24,391 bases of DNA. Source: Cyanobacteria bacterium UBA11153. Its GTDB lineage: Bacteria; Cyanobacteriota; Cyanobacteriia; Cyanobacteriales; Coleofasciculaceae. The position numbers and the translations under genes were made by a program. Location: contig DOIX01000342.1 in the NCBI GenBank assembly GCA_003511885.1, positions 1-24,391 on the forward strand, in the 5' to 3' direction. Positions 4,791 through 23,723 of this stretch are shown in pieces. The notes beneath the pieces were generated by a model. That model saw only the letters and a list, made by a program, of their open reading frames with translations, was not told where the DNA came from and searched no databases. How positions within the stretch are numbered: the stretch's first letter is position 1; each line of letters starts with the position of its first letter.

Positions 4791-6119
4791 ATGAGAGTTA
4801 AGAGATTACAAATGACCTCCTTTCGAGGCATCGAGAATTTAACTTTGGATTTTCATGAAACTCAGCCTACTGTTTTGATTGGGATTAATGGAGTTGGCAA
4901 ATCGAGTATTCTTGATTGTCTGGCAATACTTATATCTGGATTTATATGTAGGATAAAATACAATCCTAAATCTGGAACTATATTTGTGAAAATGGCAAAA
5001 CAAAACTTGTTTCCAGCAAGTGAAAAAGAAAGAGATTTAGCGAAGGGACGTTCATTTAATAAAGAAGACATCGCCAATGATCGAGATAAAACCAATTGCG
5101 ATCTTTTGATTTCAATTCCAGGAACAGAAAATTTGGCTTTGCATCTCAATAAATATCGACAAGACAAGAGTGAAAATACCAATAATAAACATGACAAATT
5201 AGACATGGTGGCTAAAGATATTCGAGAACAGTGGAAAACCAGCGATCAATTTAATATTCCCATAGCCGTCTACTATCCAGTCAATCGCGCTGTTTTTGAT
5301 ATTGATTTAGAAATTAAAGACAATTCTATTTATAAGCAAATTGACGCTTATGAACAAGCACTTGATGGAGTACGAATAAGCTTTGATAGCTTCTTTAAAT
5401 GGTTTAGACTTATAGAAGACTTAGAAAATGAGAAACTACGAGATAACCATGATTATAGAAACCGACAGATAGAAGCAGTGAGACAATCTATTTATTCAAT
5501 AATTCCAGAGTTTTCCAACTTAAGAGTACGTCGTTCCCCCTTACGAATGACAGTAAGAAAACAAGACGAGGAACTAATTGTTAATCAATTATCGGATGGG
5601 GAAAAGTGCTTGCTAGCGATGGTAGGAGATTTAGCCAGACGATTAGCAATCGCCAATCCTGGCTTACCCAATCCATTAGAAGGCAGTGGTGTTGTCATGA
5701 TTGATGAAATTGAACTACATTTACATCCAAAATGGCAAAGAGAAATTATTCCGGCTTTGACAGAAACATTTCCCAATTGTCAGTTTATTATTACTACTCA
5801 TTCGCCACTGGTAATTAGTCATGTTAAACCGGATAGTATTTACATTTTGGAAAAGACAGATGATGGTATTGTTGCTATCCATCCAGAAAGTTCCTATGGT
5901 AGAGATAGCAATCGTATTTTAGAAGATTTAATGGATACTTCGGAACGTCCACAGCACATTAAAGAGAATCTTCAAAAGTTATTTAGACTAATTGATGATG
6001 GAAAACTAACAGAAGCTCGCGAAATGAGGAAATATCTGGTAGATGAGATAGGATATTCTGAGCCAGAGTTTGCTAGTGCAGATATGCTAATTCGGCGGAA
6101 GGAAATATTAGCTAGATGA
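4791..6119 (+). CDS. ptuA: Septu-like AAA/ABC-type ATPase (PtuA-like)
   Basis: This is a 442-residue SMC/OLD-type ATPase. An N-terminal strand with SFRGIENL leads to Walker A GINGVGKS (31-38). A variable middle follows, then the ABC-like signature LSDGE (267-271), Walker B VVMIDEIELHLHP (301-313, Asp305/Glu306) and the H-loop TTHSP (His337). The tail carries SYGRDSNRILEDLM (368-381), common in the AAA_21/AAA_23 group, and a short conserved-looking end. Its stop overlaps the start of a TIGR02646-type HNH gene by four bases (ATGA), the arrangement of Septu PtuA-PtuB, where the ATPase is thought to gate the nuclease. Similar ATPases also occur in retron-Ec78-like systems, but no reverse transcriptase is visible here. 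The name rests on this pairing more than on the ATPase alone. Confidence 0.8.
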   Translation: MRVKRLQMTSFRGIENLTLDFHETQPTVLIGINGVGKSSILDCLAILISGFICRIKYNPKSGTIFVKMAKQNLFPASEKERDLAKGRSFNKEDIANDRDKTNCDLLISIPGTENLALHLNKYRQDKSENTNNKHDKLDMVAKDIREQWKTSDQFNIPIAVYYPVNRAVFDIDLEIKDNSIYKQIDAYEQALDGVRISFDSFFKWFRLIEDLENEKLRDNHDYRNRQIEAVRQSIYSIIPEFSNLRVRRSPLRMTVRKQDEELIVNQLSDGEKCLLAMVGDLARRLAIANPGLPNPLEGSGVVMIDEIELHLHPKWQREIIPALTETFPNCQFIITTHSPLVISHVKPDSIYILEKTDDGIVAIHPESSYGRDSNRILEDLMDTSERPQHIKENLQKLFRLIDDGKLTEAREMRKYLVDEIGYSEPEFASADMLIRRKEILAR

Positions 6120-6787
6120 AATATATCAAGAAGAATCAGGAACCAGAAAATTTTACCGGATGGAAAGGATGTGCCAACGCAGACTGGCAACCAAATTGGG
6201 ATAACTTTCAATCACCAGAAAAAACGGCTGTCCATAAAGCATTATTACAGGAGCAAGGTTATATCTGTTGCTACTGTGGAATGCGGATTGCTAAAGAAAT
6301 CAGTCATATTGAACATTTGCAGCCGCGAGAAATATATCCAAACATAGCACTAGACTACTCTAACTTATTAGCTTCTTGTCCTGGAGAAGGTGAAAATCCA
6401 GATTGGAAAAAACCGCAAAAAATACCAACGTCACAGAAACATTGTGGCCCCAAAAAAGATAATTGGTATGATGCTAATCTGATGGTTTCTCCTCTCCAGC
6501 CAAATTGTGGAGATTTCTTTACATATACTGGTTTCGGAGAAATTAGAGCTACCAATAACCCTACCATGCAGCCTGCGGCACAGGAAACTATTGATAGATT
6601 AGGGCTAAACGATGGTAAACTGCAAGATGCAAGACGGAGGCAGATTGAAAAAATATTACCGTTGATTGAGGTTGGTACAAAGGAAGAAATACAACAACTT
6701 ATTCAAGGTTATGAGGAACTGGATTCACAGGGAGAGTATACACCATTCTGTTTTGCGATCGCGTATATTCTCAAGCTGTATCTTTAA
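6116..6787 (+). CDS. ptuB: HNH endonuclease of the PtuB/TIGR02646 type
   Basis: This 223-residue protein has an HNH core with a zinc-binding frame: CCYC (Cys51/Cys54), SHIEHLQP (catalytic-type His67 in the IEH motif), YSNLLASC (Asn83, Cys88) and HCGPKKDN (Cys110). The IEH-P-R / Y-NLL-SC / CG-K order is what I know from TIGR02646 ('retron-associated HNH') and PtuB proteins. It is translationally coupled to the ATPase by an ATGA overlap, so both are likely made in a fixed ratio. The expected role is DNA or RNA cleavage on phage infection, held in check by the ATPase complex. The C-terminal half (about 150-223) is helical and has no motif I recognise. All key residues seem present, so the pair looks intact. 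Confidence 0.83.
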   Translation: MKYIKKNQEPENFTGWKGCANADWQPNWDNFQSPEKTAVHKALLQEQGYICCYCGMRIAKEISHIEHLQPREIYPNIALDYSNLLASCPGEGENPDWKKPQKIPTSQKHCGPKKDNWYDANLMVSPLQPNCGDFFTYTGFGEIRATNNPTMQPAAQETIDRLGLNDGKLQDARRRQIEKILPLIEVGTKEEIQQLIQGYEELDSQGEYTPFCFAIAYILKLYL

Positions 6788-7065: not shown

Positions 7066-8148
7066 TTACTGTTTTACACAATTAACCTTACTCTCAATCT
7101 GATTTTGGATAGATTTAGGAATATGTGATAAAAAATCGTATCCTGTCACTTCTTCCACAGTATCGACTGACACGCAATAGTCTTGCCAACTAGTCTGACG
7201 CACTGCTTCTGAATTGGGCATTAAGACTGCTATTACCTGGGAATCTTTGGTGATTTTCTCGATATCAAAATTAGGGCTATCTACGACAACAATAACTTTC
7301 CAGGTTTTTTCTGGTACAGATATCTTACCATCAGAAATCCTTTCCTTTTCCCCACTACCGCCAGCAATAATATAGAGAGATTTGCCCTCAGCGACTAAAT
7401 CTCTCGAATAGTCTTCCAACTCTCGCCAGACTTCCCGATTATTTGCTGGGGATTGGGGTATCATATTCGTCATCAAAAAAGTAGCGCTATTATCTGAAAT
7501 ACTGAGAGTGCGATCGCTAGATGGGGTCAAATGTCCCTTATCATAGTTAGTATCGGCATAATCGCTGGGTTTGACACGATACCACTCTGGCGGAAGTGCG
7601 TTATTAGGGCGAAAATCGTTTTGTCTTTCCACACTACCCAGCCAGGTTTGATTTAACTGCCAGCTTACCCAATTAGGAATACCTTTATCTCGGTTGTATG
7701 ATAGGGCATATTCTTCCTCTTGAATTAGATAATTATTCGGGTTGTTGATATCTGATGTGGCGAATGTAGGATTGCCAAGTACTAAATGATCGCTATCCGT
7801 TGGAGATACAATTGGAATAGCTACCACTTTAGAGTGACTGGGCAAATTATCGCACGCCTTGCCATTAGGAGGGTTGCCATCTAAGTGGTGAGAATCCCCA
7901 GACTCCAAATCGAAAACTGCTTGAGCATCTTCTTGATACTGAAAATCAGAACAATCGCAATCGGTATTGATACAAGCTGGTAAACTATTGCTATCCTCTG
8001 TCAAAACTGGTGGGGAATTAATTGGCGAAGCGATAGCAGCGATGGGGCTGAGGGAGGAAATAGAGGCGAAACTCAATATCACCCCGATTGCCAAAGCCAA
8101 AACCCTGTTTATAGATAGTACCATTCCTAGCTTACAAAAAATTAACAT
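7066..8148 (-). CDS. Secreted DNA/RNA non-specific endonuclease with Excalibur-like domain
   Basis: Counting from the chosen start (ATG at 8146-8148), the protein has 360 residues. It opens with a Sec signal peptide (VLSINRVLALAIGVILSF..., probable cleavage after SPIAAIA). An Excalibur-like calcium-binding module follows: Cys-Asp-Cys-Ser-Asp-Phe, then AQAVFD and a DGNPPNGKACD loop. The C-terminal NUC domain (PF01223 type, like Anabaena NucA) has YDKGHLTPSSDR, where DKGH replaces the usual DRGH and its His is the general base. It also has NMIPQSPANNREVW, which should supply the metal-binding Asn. It probably degrades extracellular nucleic acid for nutrients, competition or defence. The open frame extends upstream to 8205, but those 19 extra codons lie mostly in a repeat (8156-8208) and look non-native. 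An alternative start is the ATG at 8124, preceded by AGGA with almost no spacing. Confidence 0.82.
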   Translation of the reverse strand: MLIFCKLGMVLSINRVLALAIGVILSFASISSLSPIAAIASPINSPPVLTEDSNSLPACINTDCDCSDFQYQEDAQAVFDLESGDSHHLDGNPPNGKACDNLPSHSKVVAIPIVSPTDSDHLVLGNPTFATSDINNPNNYLIQEEEYALSYNRDKGIPNWVSWQLNQTWLGSVERQNDFRPNNALPPEWYRVKPSDYADTNYDKGHLTPSSDRTLSISDNSATFLMTNMIPQSPANNREVWRELEDYSRDLVAEGKSLYIIAGGSGEKERISDGKISVPEKTWKVIVVVDSPNFDIEKITKDSQVIAVLMPNSEAVRQTSWQDYCVSVDTVEEVTGYDFLSHIPKSIQNQIESKVNCVKQ

Positions 8149-8155
8149 AGATTTT

Positions 8156-8208
8156 GCGATGCCGAAGGCGAGCGAAGCTATTGCATAGCCGACACCGGGT
8201 GTCATCGC
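8156..8208. repeat. Palindromic repeat abutting the nuclease 5' end
   Basis: A block with outer arms GCGATG (8156-8161) and CATCGC (8203-8208) and an inner GACACC/GGTGTC palindrome (8191-8203). The central GAAGGCGAGCGAAGC stretch resembles the short GC-rich repeats common in filamentous cyanobacteria. It supplies most of the 5' extension of the nuclease reading frame. The following gap to 8413 is AT-rich and shows no gene; it must hold divergent promoters for the two secreted proteins. Confidence 0.6.
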
Positions 8209-11823: not shown

Positions 11824-11904
11824 GAAAGGTTATAATACTGATATAACACTGTAATCCGTGCCCGTAGCTTGATGGCATGGAGTCCTCGCTATTGCGATCG
11901 CACT

Positions 11905-12768
11905 ATGACCGACATATTAACTGTAACTCCTACAACAACTACAACTGATGCAACTTTACCACCTCCCTTTCCCGATCACACTCAATTACCAGAATCGGAT
12001 GGTACATTTGTGAAGAATTTTCAGGAGCATCCCCAAGGTATTATTTTAACTGAATCTTTAGTTCCCATCTTACAAAAATTACATCCTGATGGGAACTATG
12101 CAATTGGACAAGATTGTGGTATTTATTGGCGAGAAACTGAACCCCCAGAAAAAGGTGCAGAAGCACCAGATTGGTTTTATGTTCCTGGTGTACCACCACA
12201 ACTTAAAGGTAAAACTCGCCGTTCCTATGTATTATGGAGGGAACATCGAAAACCGATAATTGCTTTAGAATTTGCTAGTGGTGATGGTAGCGAAGAAAGA
12301 GATCGAACCCCTTCAGCGATTACTGAGGAAGGAGAGACTCAAAAACCGGGCAAATTTTGGGTATACGAACAGATTATTTCTATCCCTTACTATGGGATAT
12401 TTGAAGTTAACACTGGCAAGTTAGAAGTTTACCATCTGGAGGATAATACTTATCGTAAATTAGAACCAAATGCACGAGGACATTATCCTATTTTACCAAT
12501 GGGAGTAGAGTTAGGATTATGGCAGGGAACTTATTTGGGACAAACCCGATTATGGATGCGGTGGTGGGATAATGAAGGGAATTTGTTATTAACAGGTAAT
12601 GAAAGGGCTGAATTGGAAAAACACAGGGCAGAGATAGCGGAAAAACGTGCTGAATCTGCTCAACAGATTGCTGAATCTGCTCAACAGCGTGCTGAATCTG
12701 CGGAACAACGTGCTGCACGTTTGGCAGAGTTACTGAGAGAAAGGGGGATCGATCCGGATTTAATTTGA
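11905..12768 (+). CDS. Uma2-family (DUF820) PD-(D/E)XK-fold protein with coiled-coil tail
   Basis: A 287-residue protein from the ATG at 11905; the frame is open from a TTG at 11869, but the extra 12 codons (MAWSPRYCDRT) look non-native. The core has the Uma2/DUF820 nuclease-fold pattern: APDWFYV (Pro88-Asp89), IIALEFASGDGSEERD (Glu122, with Ser where classical nucleases have Lys) and GKFWVYEQ (Lys150). A C-terminal region (about 233-280) of repeated RAE-AEKRAESAQQ-type heptads is a coiled coil, common in cyanobacterial Uma2 proteins, and ends with the conserved-looking LAELLRERGIDPD. Uma2 proteins are very abundant in cyanobacteria; the biological role is not established. It is a single gene, flanked on both sides by dispersed repeats. 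Confidence 0.8.
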   Translation: MTDILTVTPTTTTTDATLPPPFPDHTQLPESDGTFVKNFQEHPQGIILTESLVPILQKLHPDGNYAIGQDCGIYWRETEPPEKGAEAPDWFYVPGVPPQLKGKTRRSYVLWREHRKPIIALEFASGDGSEERDRTPSAITEEGETQKPGKFWVYEQIISIPYYGIFEVNTGKLEVYHLEDNTYRKLEPNARGHYPILPMGVELGLWQGTYLGQTRLWMRWWDNEGNLLLTGNERAELEKHRAEIAEKRAESAQQIAESAQQRAESAEQRAARLAELLRERGIDPDLI

Positions 12769-12825
12769 TTGTTCAATAATTCTTAGATTTGATCTTGCAT
12801 AATTCAATGGTAAGTACCAATCTCA

Positions 12826-12980
12826 ATGGGGCGGTTGAAACCGCAGCTACACAGACAAAACCCGCCTTCGCGGGTTCTGAAACCCTCGATTTTTCGATAG
12901 TCTGCGCAGGCAGACTACCCTTCGGGAAGGCTAACGCCTAGGTTTGTGTAGCCGCGATTTCCAATCGCCGAGGCTTATTA
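12826..12980. repeat. Composite palindromic repeat with nested hairpins
   Basis: The outer arms GCAGCTACACAGAC (12843-12856) and GTTTGTGTAGCCGC (12942-12955) are imperfect inverted copies. Inside are CCCGC-CTTC-GCGGG (12861-12874), TCGATTTTTCGA (about 12886-12897), AGTCTG-CGCAGG-CAGACT (12899-12916) and CCCTTCGGG. I recognise the outer 'GCGGTTGAAACCGCAGCTACACA...TGTGTAGCCGCG' as a dispersed cyanobacterial type. The inner hairpins look like a second repeat nested in the first. There is no coding potential. It fills most of the gap between the convergent Uma2 and DUF3226 genes. Confidence 0.7.
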
Positions 12981-12998
12981 CGAGTGGTGCAAGTTATC

Positions 12999-13052
12999 AG
13001 TTGAAATGGACTAAAATATGGCGGAGTTGTCTTTACACGACTTTAGCTGTGA
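12999..13052. repeat. Copy of the 'TTGAAATGGACT / CTTTAGCT' repeat
   Basis: TTGAAATGGACTAAA (13001-13015) and an imperfect palindrome AGTTGTCTTTACACGACT (13025-13042) followed by TTAGCTGTGA lie just beyond the stop of the DUF3226 gene. It shares motifs with 11776-11823. It could act as a weak hairpin at the 3' end of the minus-strand block. Confidence 0.5.
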
Positions 13053-13054
13053 TA

Positions 13055-13840
13055 TTATTGGTCAATCCCTAAAACTTCCTTTAAAAATTGTCTAATCAGA
13101 ATCATATTACTTAACTTCAGCGTTTCTTCGTCTATCCAACGATTATCTTGGAGTGAAACCTGTATAGCTTTACCAGGTTTTAATACACTGCTTATTATAG
13201 ATATAATTGCCTTGTTTTTCCCAGCAGGTTTCTTTATCTCTCTCAAATCTTTTTTATCTAATTTTGATCTATCTATAAGATTAACATAGTTTTTAGACAA
13301 TTCTAGTAGATTAGCATAATTTAATTCAGCACACTCAATTAAAATGTCTTCTAAAGTACCTGATTCTTCATTGTTAGGAATAATAAAGATGCCAAACCTA
13401 GGTGAATTTTTGATAACCTCACCTAGTATTGAGGGTAAAGATAATTTGAAATCAGCGAAATCTGGAGATGATAGTTTCTGAATTAAAAGCTGAAATCGTT
13501 CCGATGGTTTTTCGTTAGTATCTGCATCTAATAATAGACATATACCAAATAGCTGAGAAGATTCAAGTATAGCTAGGCTTTCTTCTAAAGTTTCAACTAT
13601 ACGTTCAATTCCCGTAGCACTATGTAAGGCAACAGATATTTGAGCGTTTTGCAAAAATATCGGAATAGGAACACGCTTCATTAAATCGTCATCGATAGGA
13701 AAAGTTTTGGGAATTAGTTCCTTCCAGAATCCGTCTAGAGTAGAGTATTTAGTAATTCTGGATAAACCAAAAGGTTTAATCAATTGAACCAAAAACTCAA
13801 TATCATGCTGTCCCTCTGCCACAATATAACAATATCTCAT
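13055..13840 (-). CDS. DUF3226 Toprim-like protein, partner of the SMC/OLD-like ATPase
   Basis: This 261-residue protein has Toprim-like acidic motifs: YIVAEGQHD (Glu9), ICLLLDADTNE (Asp105, Asp107) and IIPNNEESGTLEDIL (153-167, Glu164/Asp165). The last is the hallmark I associate with DUF3226. Toprim nucleases use such residues to bind Mg2+ and cut DNA or RNA. The start lies only 5 bp after the ATPase stop, so the two are co-transcribed and probably coupled. An ATPase plus a separate Toprim protein resembles a split OLD/Gabija nuclease or the AriA-AriB (PARIS) and AbiL/RloAB pairs, but I would not assign it to any of these by name. The region after residue 170 is helical and unrecognised. 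It ends next to a small repeat. Confidence 0.75.
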   Translation of the reverse strand: MRYCYIVAEGQHDIEFLVQLIKPFGLSRITKYSTLDGFWKELIPKTFPIDDDLMKRVPIPIFLQNAQISVALHSATGIERIVETLEESLAILESSQLFGICLLLDADTNEKPSERFQLLIQKLSSPDFADFKLSLPSILGEVIKNSPRFGIFIIPNNEESGTLEDILIECAELNYANLLELSKNYVNLIDRSKLDKKDLREIKKPAGKNKAIISIISSVLKPGKAIQVSLQDNRWIDEETLKLSNMILIRQFLKEVLGIDQ

Positions 13841-13845
13841 CCTGA

Positions 13846-14988
13846 CTATCTCACATCTAATCCACGTTCTAAGCGTAGTCGATTTAAAAGATTACCAGAG
13901 AATCTTTTAATTGGTTCATCTGTAGTATTTAAACGAAAAGCAGCAAGATCATCCGTACTTACATTTGACTGAATAATTGCATCAACAGCTTCCAAGCTAT
14001 GGGTTGTCACAAAAAGTTGTACTTCTTTCGCTAAACATGCTGCTACTAGCCAAGAGAAAAATTGATTTAGGGCTGATACATGGATAGATGTTTCAATTTC
14101 ATCAATCAGTAATACGCCTTTTTTCGCTGAGTGTAGTGCTAAAATAATCCCTAATGTTCGCTTCAATCCATCGCCAAAGGCGTAGAGAGGAGTTAATCCT
14201 AATTTTTGATGGTCAAGATAAAGGATTGCAGCTTTTTTAGGGGAGAGAATCAATATGTCAGTAATATCGGGATCGAATAATCGAATTAAATCTATAATTT
14301 CATTCTTATTAGTTTTATCTTCTAGTATGCTTTTAGTAAAACGAGTTGATTCAGCGGTAGAATAAGCAGGGGATATAATAGCACTATTTATACCATAGTT
14401 AGCGGATTTTTTTTGAATAAACCTTTCATTTTCCCAAAACTGAAAGGTTTCTGTAGCAACCCCAGATTCCTGAGAACTAAATAAACTCATTTGATGAAAT
14501 GAAGTATGATGAGCAATAACTTCTAGTTCTAGTCCTTCAAGAGAATATTCAAGATCGTAGCTTAAGTTCTCATTATCTTCATCTGATTGAGTGCTGATAA
14601 GTTGTTTACTTGGACTTCCCCAAATTTCTAAAAGGTTGGTTTCTAATTTTTTTATTGGTGCATTACCGCTAGCTTCTATTTCCATTTTCCAAAAATATCC
14701 CGATCCTGATAGATTTTCCTGTTTTTGAAAAATCCATCTAATCGACTCCAAATCAGGTCGATAAGTTAAGTTTCTACCTAAAGACAACCTACGTTGTGAT
14801 ACTTCCAGCCAACGAAAGGGATTGAGTGGATTACAAAAAATTGAAATAGCCTCAAGTAAACTAGTTTTCCCTGAATTATTTATACCAACAATAATATTTA
14901 TCTGTCTTAAATCGGACAGATGTACCTCTGGAAACCGACGAAACCCACGAATTGTTAAATCATTAAAGAGCTGAGTCATGTAAAACAA
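13846..14988 (-). CDS. SMC/OLD-like AAA ATPase of a two-gene defence-like module
   Basis: This is a 380-residue ATPase from the first start; the ATG three codons later (MTQLFNDLTIRGFRRF) is the likelier initiation. Domains: N-terminal LTIRGFRRF strand, Walker A GINNSGKT (35-42), a variable insert (about 60-235), ABC signature-like FGDGLKR (271-277), Walker B GVLLIDEIETSIH (291-303, Asp296/Glu297) and the H-loop TTHS (328-331). The protein ends shortly after this core and lacks a fused Toprim domain. That function seems to be supplied by the next gene, 5 bp downstream. The family occurs in phage-defence pairs where ATP hydrolysis or a phage trigger releases a nuclease. It shares little beyond motifs with the Septu-like ATPase at 4791, so it is not a recent duplicate. 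Confidence 0.8.
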   Translation of the reverse strand: MFYMTQLFNDLTIRGFRRFPEVHLSDLRQINIIVGINNSGKTSLLEAISIFCNPLNPFRWLEVSQRRLSLGRNLTYRPDLESIRWIFQKQENLSGSGYFWKMEIEASGNAPIKKLETNLLEIWGSPSKQLISTQSDEDNENLSYDLEYSLEGLELEVIAHHTSFHQMSLFSSQESGVATETFQFWENERFIQKKSANYGINSAIISPAYSTAESTRFTKSILEDKTNKNEIIDLIRLFDPDITDILILSPKKAAILYLDHQKLGLTPLYAFGDGLKRTLGIILALHSAKKGVLLIDEIETSIHVSALNQFFSWLVAACLAKEVQLFVTTHSLEAVDAIIQSNVSTDDLAAFRLNTTDEPIKRFSGNLLNRLRLERGLDVR

Positions 14989-15003
14989 ACAAAAATATAG
15001 TTA

Positions 15004-15042
15004 GGGGCTAGGGGCTAGGGGCTAGAGACTAGAGACTAGGGG
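15004..15042. repeat. Heptanucleotide tandem repeat (GGGGCTA/GAGACTA)
   Basis: Three exact GGGGCTA units (15004-15024), two GAGACTA units (15025-15038) and a partial GGGG lie 15 bp upstream of the ATPase start. A degenerate version of the same type (GGGGATAGGGGATGGGG) lies at about 4717-4733, before the Septu-like ATPase. Such heptamer arrays are known in cyanobacteria (short tandemly repeated repetitive sequences). The rest of the 204-bp gap to the NACHT gene shows no hairpin terminator. Confidence 0.75.
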
Positions 15043-15192
15043 AAGAAAGGACTAGAATCTTAGGTTTCAAGAATTCAGAATGTCCTAATTCCTTTGGCTG
15101 TTGCTATATCTACTCACTTAAACTGACCAGCTTAAATCATAATTATACCCTGATCAAGTAAAGGCTGATCCCTCAAAGTATAGTCCAAAAAC

Positions 15193-18099
15193 TTAGGGTA
15201 AAAATCCATCGGGTACGTTAATTGCTGTTTCCAATCCGCGTACATTTTCCCGGTTTGTATTCTCATCCCAGGATATGTTAGTGAGGTCTGCATGACTGAG
15301 GTTTGCACCACTAAGGTTTGCGCCACTGAGGTTTGCGCCACTGAGGTTTGCGCCACTGAGATTTGCGCCACTGAGATTTGCCTCACTCAGGTTTACATCA
15401 AAGAGGTATGCGTCACTAAGGTTTGCCTCACTAAGGTTTGCCTCACTCAGGTTTACACCAATGAGGTATGCGTCACTAAGGTCTGCGCCGCTGAGATCTG
15501 CGTAATTTAGGTGTGCGTAACTGAGGTCTGCGTTACTTAGGTCTGCACGAATGAGGTGTGCGCCGCTGAGGTCTGCGTTGCTTAGGTATGCCTCATTAAG
15601 GTATGCGTTATTGAGGTATGCGTCACTCAAGTCTGCCCCACCGAGGTCTGCGTTACTGAGGTCTACACCACTGAGGTATGTACCACTGAGGTTTGCGTCA
15701 CCAAGAAAGAAGCACAGTATAAAAGCACCAATGCTAAGACTATCGCTGTAGCTGATAATCCGCAGCAATCGCGTTTCATCAAAACCCGTGCTATCTTTTT
15801 TCCCACAGGGATAGAAGTCAATTTTATCCTTCAACTCATCCTTTTCTTGACCATAGCTATGTAATTCAAACAGTAAAATCATCACATTCAACCCTGCAAA
15901 AACATCCACTTCTCGCAGTCCCAATTTACTGCCATTTGAACGCAACTGTAGCATCTTATTCTGAGGCAAGTTTTTTGGATAGGCATTAATAAATTCACCA
16001 TTGCACCAGTCCAGATAGAATTCTTCTAAGCGCTGGAATAACTCAATCGCCTGAAACTTGTCACTCCCCTTGAGTAAGGTCATCAGATAGTCTATAATTT
16101 CTGGAGTTAACCAACCATAACCCAACAAATCATAAATATTTTCTGCTAGCTGATTGCGATCAATATAAAATTTTTGGCGTTTTAGACCGGGTTCAGTCCA
16201 CTCTTCTAAACTTTCCTGTAGCCGTTTTGCACATAAAAATTCGCCAAAACTTTTATGAATAAATTCCACTCCACCGTCTTTATTATCCGATGAAACAGCG
16301 GGCTGTAGGTAAAAGGCTGCTAAAGCATTTCTCAGGGGATTCTCCCCTATACGTTTTTGAGCTTTTTCTAGCAAAGCTTTCACGCCATCATCCCCTTTTA
16401 ACCGTTCCTCAATAGTTTTAATTGATACCCATTCTCCACCAGATTGAGTGACAGCTAACCCTGCTTCCATGAGAATCTGGCGCAAGTCTTCGGTTTCATA
16501 TTCAGTCAGGTCAATATTGAGTGCTTCAGGACGTTGCTTAGTCAGTACCCAATCAATAGTAGTTTCATAAACCAGAATTTTAGCATTAGTACTATCAGCC
16601 CCAGCAAACATATCCGGAGTCAATTTACCATCCCGGTACATGGCAGCTAAAAGATATAGTAATAGGGGTTCCTGTGCTAATTGCTGCACTCTTTCTGGAC
16701 AATTTCGATCTCGCAAAAATGCCTTAAACTCATTTGTTTTATCCTCTCCAACTAACATTCCCCACTTACCAAGCCACTCCTCTTGCAGGGATTCATCCAT
16801 TAAAGCAATTTCCACCCTTTCCAGATTTCTGGGCACGACAATTCCCTGCAACGCCAATTCCCTTCCCGTGACTAAAAATCTATGTCCTAATTGGGGGTTT
16901 TGCTGACAGCTTGATTGAAAATATCCCACCTTTTTCAGAAACTCTTCAATCCCGCCAGAAGTTCTCCCTTCCATCCGCAATTCATCAAAGCCATCCAGGA
17001 GAAATAAAAACCGAGTATTACTATCCGTCAACCAACCATCATCACTTTTCGCAAAATCTGCTTGCACCGCAGCACGAAGAGTATTCTCAATATTCGGTTC
17101 AAAAGCATTAATATCCCGTAGGCGAATTAATATCGGTGTCCAAATCGGATGGAGATGTTCTCGCACCCAATTAGCAAACATCCGGCAAAATACACTTTTA
17201 CCTCGCCCTGGTCCGGCTTGAATAAACATAACTTGACCATTTTTATCGGAGTTAACAAGTAAGTCTTTTGCCCAGGTTTCTAAATTAATTAGTGCTTCAT
17301 TTTCCTTGCCCTTTCCATTTCCATCCACTAACTTAGCTTTCAGTGACACATAGATCTCAGAAATATTAAAAGGTTCATCAAAAACTTGCCACCGTCCCCG
17401 AATCAGCGGATTGCTGGAATTGGGGGATATTTGATCCTCTAAATAGGACTCAATCCCACCATATTTTTGATTCTTGCCAATTTCCCATCCCGCCTTAGCA
17501 TAGAGATTTAACTGTTCGCGAATTGCACCAGATTCGGAAGAGAGGAGTGAATTAATATAAGTCTTTGTTTCCCAAGCTACCCATCCGGTTATAATTGGAA
17601 TCGTATATTTATCCAGTCCAACACCTTCCAAATAACCAGTAAGATGGGAATTTAACCCTAATCCTAAAGTGGAATCAGGGAAAGACTTAAAAGCCTCTTG
17701 AATCAGTTCATCAGTTAAATAAAGATTACCTAAATCATCGAATTGTGTCTTAATATCCTTCCCCAATAATCCCGCCCCGATTCTGGATTTTAACCAATCA
17801 TTACGCTGTACCAAACCATCAAAACTTGCCAGATAAGCCAGAGGAAAAGCGATCGCCCCCCATTCTCCCAGACTTTGCTCCTTATTTTTCCGCTCCCGAT
17901 AAAACTGTAAACCCCGTCTCGCCAAACCCACAAACGACAATCCCGCCGCTACAGGTGCAAGAGGAGTAAACATACCAAGTGCGATCGCTAATTCTAACCC
18001 AGCCTTAGAAACCTCAGCCCCAGACTCAATAATTTCTCCCGGTTTCCCCAAATCACGGATATCTCTATTCAGGAATTGCCAAACTTGCTTAATCTTCAC
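15193..18099 (-). CDS. NACHT-domain STAND NTPase with C-terminal pentapeptide repeats
   Basis: This 968-residue protein starts at a GTG with no clear ribosome binding site. Residues 1-280 are a helical N-terminal region with a hydrophobic stretch near 36-62. The NACHT NTPase follows: Walker A QAGPGRGKSVF (294-304), Walker B FLFLLDGFDEL (364-374), a sensor-like LVTGRE (409-414), and a winged-helix end with FIHKSFGEFLCAKRL (613-627). A linker (630-798) leads to about 28 pentapeptide repeats of A(D/N)LSx type (799-942), which should fold as a quadrilateral beta-helix, then a tail ending in PDGFLP. Bacterial NACHT proteins include antiviral NLR-like factors, with the C-terminal repeats usually the sensor. 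The N-terminal 280 residues may be the effector and match nothing I know. It lies upstream of, and in the same direction as, the ATPase-DUF3226 pair. Confidence 0.87.
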   Translation of the reverse strand: MKIKQVWQFLNRDIRDLGKPGEIIESGAEVSKAGLELAIALGMFTPLAPVAAGLSFVGLARRGLQFYRERKNKEQSLGEWGAIAFPLAYLASFDGLVQRNDWLKSRIGAGLLGKDIKTQFDDLGNLYLTDELIQEAFKSFPDSTLGLGLNSHLTGYLEGVGLDKYTIPIITGWVAWETKTYINSLLSSESGAIREQLNLYAKAGWEIGKNQKYGGIESYLEDQISPNSSNPLIRGRWQVFDEPFNISEIYVSLKAKLVDGNGKGKENEALINLETWAKDLLVNSDKNGQVMFIQAGPGRGKSVFCRMFANWVREHLHPIWTPILIRLRDINAFEPNIENTLRAAVQADFAKSDDGWLTDSNTRFLFLLDGFDELRMEGRTSGGIEEFLKKVGYFQSSCQQNPQLGHRFLVTGRELALQGIVVPRNLERVEIALMDESLQEEWLGKWGMLVGEDKTNEFKAFLRDRNCPERVQQLAQEPLLLYLLAAMYRDGKLTPDMFAGADSTNAKILVYETTIDWVLTKQRPEALNIDLTEYETEDLRQILMEAGLAVTQSGGEWVSIKTIEERLKGDDGVKALLEKAQKRIGENPLRNALAAFYLQPAVSSDNKDGGVEFIHKSFGEFLCAKRLQESLEEWTEPGLKRQKFYIDRNQLAENIYDLLGYGWLTPEIIDYLMTLLKGSDKFQAIELFQRLEEFYLDWCNGEFINAYPKNLPQNKMLQLRSNGSKLGLREVDVFAGLNVMILLFELHSYGQEKDELKDKIDFYPCGKKDSTGFDETRLLRIISYSDSLSIGAFILCFFLGDANLSGTYLSGVDLSNADLGGADLSDAYLNNAYLNEAYLSNADLSGAHLIRADLSNADLSYAHLNYADLSGADLSDAYLIGVNLSEANLSEANLSDAYLFDVNLSEANLSGANLSGANLSGANLSGANLSGANLSHADLTNISWDENTNRENVRGLETAINVPDGFLP
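15274..15705 (-). repeat. Pentapeptide-repeat coding array (15-bp periodicity)
   Basis: The 3' end of the NACHT gene is a DNA array with 15-bp period and about 28 units. Near its end (about 15309-15368) several consecutive units are identical or differ by one base (GTTTGCGCCACTGAG), encoding repeated GANLS. Units farther upstream in the gene are more diverged (AYLSN, AHLIR). This gradient suggests recent unit duplication at the C-terminal side. Frames open on the opposite strand and in another frame here are by-products of the repeat. Confidence 0.85.
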
Positions 18100-23150: not shown

Positions 23151-23723
23151 TCAAACAATACCAGGCTTTAACCAACCAAATAACTCCCCAACCGTAAGTT
23201 TAAAATTCTCCATAAACTCTGGAGTTGGCATTACCAAATCCGCCTCTGATAAAAATATAGGTTGTTTTCCAGCCGGATATGCGATCGCAGATTTTTCCGC
23301 CGGGTCCAGCAACCAACCCATCTCACAACCATGATTCAGACAATGGAGGATATTATTCGTTACTTTTGTCTGGCTTTGATCCGGAGATAAAATTTCAATT
23401 GCCCAGTCGGGATTAGCCGCGAAAACATTAGCAATATCTCCCTCTTCATCCAAAGGAATGTGATTCCAAGTAAAAACAGCAATATCTGGTACAATGGAAC
23501 GTCCACCAAAGGTACAACGTAATTCGGGAAGGGCTAAAGCAATTCTTTTTTTTTCTACAATCTTATTAATTACCGTAAAAAGTTCACCCCTAAGTAAACT
23601 ATGTTTTCCTTGTGGCATGGGTTTTTGGATAATTTGACCGTCGATATATTCGCTAGCAGGTTTAGTTTCTGGTAATTCTAAAAACTCTGCCAATGTTAAT
23701 GGTTTAGTAGGAGCTTGTACCAT
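23151..23723 (-). CDS. Uma2-family (DUF820) PD-(D/E)XK-fold protein
   Basis: This 190-residue protein is of ordinary Uma2 length. Motifs in order: LTLAEFLELPETKPASEYIDG (9-29, with conserved Glu25), GKHSLLRGELF, SIVPDIAVF (Pro79-Asp80), WAIEILSPDQSQTKV (107-121, Glu110, then Lys120), and the end LTVGELFGWL. These are the DUF820 core residues. The family is expanded in cyanobacterial genomes and its role is not established. The gene lies 22 bp upstream of hicB on the same strand and could be co-transcribed with the toxin-antitoxin pair. It lacks the coiled-coil tail of the Uma2 protein at 11905 and is not a close copy of it. Confidence 0.88.
   Translation of the reverse strand: MVQAPTKPLTLAEFLELPETKPASEYIDGQIIQKPMPQGKHSLLRGELFTVINKIVEKKRIALALPELRCTFGGRSIVPDIAVFTWNHIPLDEEGDIANVFAANPDWAIEILSPDQSQTKVTNNILHCLNHGCEMGWLLDPAEKSAIAYPAGKQPIFLSEADLVMPTPEFMENFKLTVGELFGWLKPGIV

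Follow-up and report, generated by a model that had tools for sequence, protein, structure and literature searches.

Do three neighbouring minus-strand genes on a cyanobacterial contig form one defence system, or do they merely lie side by side? The genes occupy positions 13055-18099 of a 24,391-nt stretch of contig DOIX01000342.1 (assembly GCA_003511885.1, Cyanobacteria bacterium UBA11153), which we call the window. They encode a NACHT STAND protein with a pentapeptide repeat array, an ABC/SMC-type ATPase and a protein of the DUF3226 family, a predicted Toprim-fold nuclease. The original prediction joined all three in a candidate undescribed system. We find that the ATPase and DUF3226 genes are a near-obligate pair, and the NACHT gene and this pair appear, from comparison across genomes, to be two independent modules that happen to adjoin.

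Locus layout

The open reading frames (ORFs) and their Pfam domains bear out the arrangement of three minus-strand genes that had been read from the sequence. The NACHT gene (15193..18099) encodes 968 amino acids (aa), the ATPase gene (13846..14979) 377 aa when counted from an ATG, and the DUF3226 gene (13055..13840) 261 aa. The last of these lies 5 bp from the ATPase gene, as originally stated. The ATPase frame can be extended to a TTG at 14988 (13846-14988, minus strand, 380 aa). Because alignments of the closest homologues mostly begin at residue 4 of this longer form (8 of the 11 closest loci, 13 of 31 overall), the true start is probably ATG 14979. The gap to the NACHT gene would therefore be 213 bp; measured from the TTG it is 204 bp.

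Linkage of the three genes across genomes

To compare surroundings, we used the DUF3226 protein and residues 1-790 of the NACHT protein as queries against one set of 291 genomes from the order, calling linkage by tblastn (E 1e-4 and more than 35 bits). For DUF3226 we took the 31 best non-self matches, which are all that reached 101.8 bits; their flanks were mostly ~9 kb per side, some shortened by contig ends, and that of L108 was set at 4.4 kb. In all 31 the gene immediately upstream, on the same strand, was that of the ATPase, and within these flanks a NACHT gene was found at none. The reverse comparison covered 47 of the 52 best non-self NACHT places, with one more lying inside L155. Neither the ATPase nor DUF3226 was found at any of these 47 loci, several of which are at contig ends and have one-sided or short flanks.

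Two further sets gave the same pairing. All of the 30 best places for the Pfam DUF3226 model, mostly a shorter form of ~220 aa, had an ATPase-profile match on the same strand upstream, directly adjacent in 29; the ATPase is split in L024, and in L016 only an ATPase remnant was matched, more than 1 kb upstream. A scan of named genome contigs, made with the DUF3226 alignment, yielded 53 loci, every one with the ATPase no more than 300 bp away on the same strand, and none with a NACHT profile match (E ≤ 1e-5) in flanks of up to 8 kb. This set partly overlaps the first (e.g., Dolichospermum and Spirulina records), and the counts are not additive.

The nearest genome compared, from the same genus (G225), carries the NACHT protein at 84% identity within a conserved NACHT-acnB stretch (85.6% over 5,455 bp), and neither protein search nor the Pfam model found a DUF3226 match there. 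Its contigs break at the expected junction, so an empty site is unreadable in that genome. Since pair loci show no NACHT linkage and NACHT loci show no pair, the two modules appear to be independent. The proposal that the NACHT gene belongs with the ATPase and DUF3226 had come with a counter-indication in two parts, rare adjacency in other genomes and separate transcripts, and the first part is what the survey of homologue co-occurrence returned.

The gap itself contains a dispersed intergenic repeat (14996..15111, assigned to neither strand), recognised by matches within the genome and by Tandem Repeats Finder (TRF). At least 40 similar places occur elsewhere in the same genome, 40 candidate matches having been scored, and TRF places a TAGGGGC heptamer array (period 7) at 15002-15042. 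The original remark that no obvious terminator separates the genes stands insofar as a scan found no terminator-like site in the gap; it loses weight because sites in that scan were no commoner than in shuffled sequence (5 versus a mean of 4.3). A second dispersed repeat, at 12813-13012, lies downstream of the DUF3226 gene and is partially matched at dozens of places in the same-genus genome.

The pair and known systems

The ATPase matched the PADLOC profiles PDC-M38A (238 bits), AbiLi (149 bits) and AriA (88 bits), and the DUF3226 protein matched its best profile, PDC-M38B, at 55.6 bits and only with residues 95-242. Adjacency together with profile matches of both genes is the basis of the assignment. 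Because the PDC-M38 profiles are matched by every aligned ATPase (31 of 31) and every aligned partner (51 of 51), the pair is, as judged from sequence, a further member of the PADLOC candidate PDC-M38 (PDC-M38A plus PDC-M38B), catalogued and untried as defence, so the description of the pair as undescribed does not hold. The PDC models reportedly stem from a PADLOC group preprint. A literature search for 'DUF3226' and 'PDC-M38' returned no paper and no published experiment, bioRxiv preprints not being covered as such. 'Phage defence candidate' is the wording used for PDC entries in the relevant part of PMC11514479.

In Pfam, the ATPase matched AAA_21 (92.3 bits) and AAA_15 (74.2 bits). Its AlphaFold2 model (mean predicted local distance difference test score 78.7) resembles the heads of Rad50, SMC, GajA, PtuA and AriA. 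The Walker motifs are kept in the alignment, which comprises the window and 30 loci, the L095 ATPase with its stop being left out; the AbiLi profile was also matched by 31 of 31.

The DUF3226 protein scored 75.6 bits against its Pfam model (cut-off 27) and is predicted, with good structural support, to have a Toprim fold. The closest structure to its model is PH0156 (PDB 2p62), followed by the Toprims of OLD nucleases. This orphan archaeal structure, labelled 'hypothetical protein', is the nearest relative of DUF3226 among solved structures; its OLD-nuclease matches come second. Residues E9, D13, D105 and D107 are invariant in an alignment of the window protein with 27 loci and 23 of 120 listed proteins, from which four long-form loci (L092, L097, L099 and L112) were left out. 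The same residues are kept in 48-49 of the 53 named-contig sequences, the remainder being gaps. Short forms fall into N-terminal gaps in the residue alignment; by motif search, 29 of the 30 carry EGxxD and DxD, and the remaining one is a truncated frame. On these predictions the protein shares with the OLD superfamily, taken as a mechanism class, a Toprim fold with a two-metal acidic site.

A tight ABC/SMC-type ATPase with a predicted Toprim partner agrees with the OLD/PARIS logic first suggested for the pair. Class 1/2 OLD proteins and Gabija GajA likewise combine an ABC ATPase head with an OLD-type Toprim, but in GajA and OLD classes 1-3 the two are fused in one protein, whereas the pair consists of separate ORFs. 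Furthermore, GajA is accompanied by a UvrD-like helicase, and the pair loci have no conserved third gene. A further parallel is PARIS, or class 4 OLD, for which the sections on OLD classification in PMC12796447 and PMC10568477 place ATPase and Toprim on neighbouring genes. The separate adjacent genes of AriA and AriB are matched by the pair; in PARIS the Toprim partner is AriB (DUF4435-type). As for AbiL, the AbiLi match of the ATPase is weaker than that to PDC-M38A, and PADLOC listed no AbiLii match for DUF3226 at E ≤ 1, the presence of an AbiLii model in PADLOC being unchecked.

Distribution of the pair

Across the order, 148 of the 291 genomes contained the Pfam DUF3226 family, as did 7 of 20 genomes of the taxonomic family to which the window belongs; a single genome had as many as 8 matches. 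The subfamily of the window protein itself is less common (66 of 291 genomes at E ≤ 0.001, many of the matches weak). By record title, the named-contig loci come from Cyanobacteria as well as Planctomycetota, Myxococcota, Desulfobacterales, Acidobacteria, Bacteroidetes and Verrucomicrobia; the non-cyanobacterial ones are nearly all metagenome-assembled genomes, in which misbinned contigs are possible. The phage, plasmid and viral collections yielded no relative.

Broken ATPases occur in L095 (a stop), L016 and L024, where assembly or sequencing error is possible. In 6 of the 53 named-contig loci (L258, L262, L263, L264, L265 and L267) DUF3226 is spread over several frames with the ATPase present, possibly by effector decay or assembly error. 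Hormoscilla loci show several PDC-M38-type ATPase frames in tandem ahead of DUF3226 (L249, 4283-8777; L265, 5609-8940). In L249, three ATPase-profile frames precede a single DUF3226.

The NACHT protein

Pfam assigned the N-terminal part of the NACHT protein (residues 45-244; 17368..17967, minus strand) to NNH3 (NACHT N-terminal helical domain 3, PF22735) with 67.1 bits (cut-off 27), a region that we aligned with 33 homologues, and detected Pentapeptide repeats with 167 bits. The Pfam NACHT model reached 23.3 bits, under its cut-off of 26.7, although the protein does contain a Walker A motif, GPGRGKS. The pentapeptide array (15282..15701, minus strand) comprises 28.0 copies of a 15-bp unit by TRF, in agreement with the roughly 28 repeats originally counted, and 29 pentapeptides form a run under a permissive pattern. 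With that pattern the longest run varied from 11 to 47 among the 39 of 47 homologues that have a closed frame of at least 792 aa; in the remaining 8 the frame is broken or runs off a contig end.

Relatives of the protein occur in at least 139 of the 291 genomes, with at most three candidates scored per genome. The NACHT gene is near a putative ribosomal protein L21 gene in 12 of 47 loci and near a putative L27 gene in 11 of 47, both neighbours being named from their sequences. The NACHT gene, as these surroundings indicate, has its own, partly vertical, history.

No PADLOC model matched the NACHT protein at E ≤ 1. Bacterial NACHT proteins with a phage-defence function are known (PMC12169576), and the word 'pentapeptide' is absent from the main text of that paper. 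Like these NLR-related proteins, the window protein holds an N-terminal domain, a putative NACHT-type switch and a C-terminal region in one polypeptide; it differs in having NNH3 at its N-terminus and pentapeptide repeats as the C-terminal repeat region. It is likely a single-gene NLR-like switch, in which NNH3 would be the effector or signalling domain, NACHT the switch and the variable pentapeptide solenoid the sensor.

Defence genes in the window

A Septu-type pair lies at 4791-6787 on the plus strand, 6.3 kb from the ATPase-DUF3226 pair. It consists of a PtuA ATPase (442 aa, 517 bits) and a PtuB HNH nuclease (223 aa, 242 bits) whose genes overlap by 4 bp. Because of this neighbour and the PADLOC profile kinship, we favour a defence role for the ATPase-DUF3226 pair; the flanks of its relatives gave no clear added support for that role.

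A DNA/RNA non-specific endonuclease gene (Endonuclease_NS, 188 bits; 7066-8205, minus strand) adjoins the Septu pair. The window also contains two genes for Uma2 putative restriction endonucleases (11869-12768, plus strand; 23151-23723, minus strand), the second of which matches the PADLOC candidate PDC-S03.

Discussion

Taken as a whole, we consider it rather probable that the locus consists of two unrelated modules lying side by side, a pair acting in the manner of a split OLD nuclease or of PARIS, and a stand-alone NLR-like NACHT protein. By analogy with the known systems, the pair itself is most likely a split OLD-like or PARIS-like sensor-nuclease. The ATPase subunits would build an ATP-dependent assembly able to detect a signal of infection and to restrain or activate the Toprim subunit. 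Once released or activated, the Toprim subunit would cleave nucleic acid and halt the phage or the cell; the target could be DNA, as in OLD and Gabija, or, as for AriB of PARIS, tRNA. For AriB, the excerpted text of PMC12409363 describes a two-metal nuclease that cleaves tRNA-Lys, with cutting abolished by E26A.

An unlikely alternative, and the strongest of those weighed, is that the pair serves housekeeping or DNA repair rather than defence, a RecF/Rad50-like ATPase acting with a Toprim nuclease. The best fold matches of the ATPase are indeed Rad50 and SMC heads, a RecF model is among its sequence matches, although below cut-off (42.4 of 172 bits), and the collections searched gave no evidence of mobility. 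There is also a precedent in the archaeal OLD protein Cran1, which, according to the passages concerned in PMC12796447, acts in the cell cycle and seems not to be defensive. Against such a role, presence of the pair is patchy within the order and its own family, DUF3226 has no match in the same-genus genome and up to 8 in another, broken copies occur, some of them possibly sequencing errors, and the closest profiles are those of the defence candidates PDC-M38 and AbiL.

It is more doubtful still that the two genes make up a stabilisation module akin to toxin-antitoxin systems, in which the ATPase merely restrains the Toprim protein without specific phage sensing. Two tightly spaced genes would suit such a module, and AAA_21 carries the Pfam label 'putative AbiEii toxin, Type IV TA system'; however, no plasmid or phage carrier was found in the collections searched, and the ATPase resembles the heads of the sensor-effector systems GajA, PtuA and AriA. 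Finally, a three-gene system with the NACHT protein as a sensor controlling the pair is very improbable, since the shared strand, the 204-213 bp gap and its lack of a terminator-like site are outweighed by the missing linkage in both directions, by the same-genus genome with NACHT and no DUF3226 match, and by the dispersed repeat in the gap.

The comparisons thus indicate that the proposed NLR-ATPase-Toprim system is not one unit, and they leave the NNH3-NACHT-pentapeptide protein as a separate NLR-like candidate. To the idea that DUF3226 represents a branch of its own among Toprim effector nucleases we give even credence; with its own ABC ATPase it would make up a further class of split OLD-type immunity, apart from PARIS, present in Cyanobacteria and, by record title, in other phyla, and having a trigger and a nucleic-acid target of its own. 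For the DUF3226 family, the pairing provides a concrete and testable role, as the putative nuclease component of a split, OLD-like pair that is widespread, with the exact residues to mutate.
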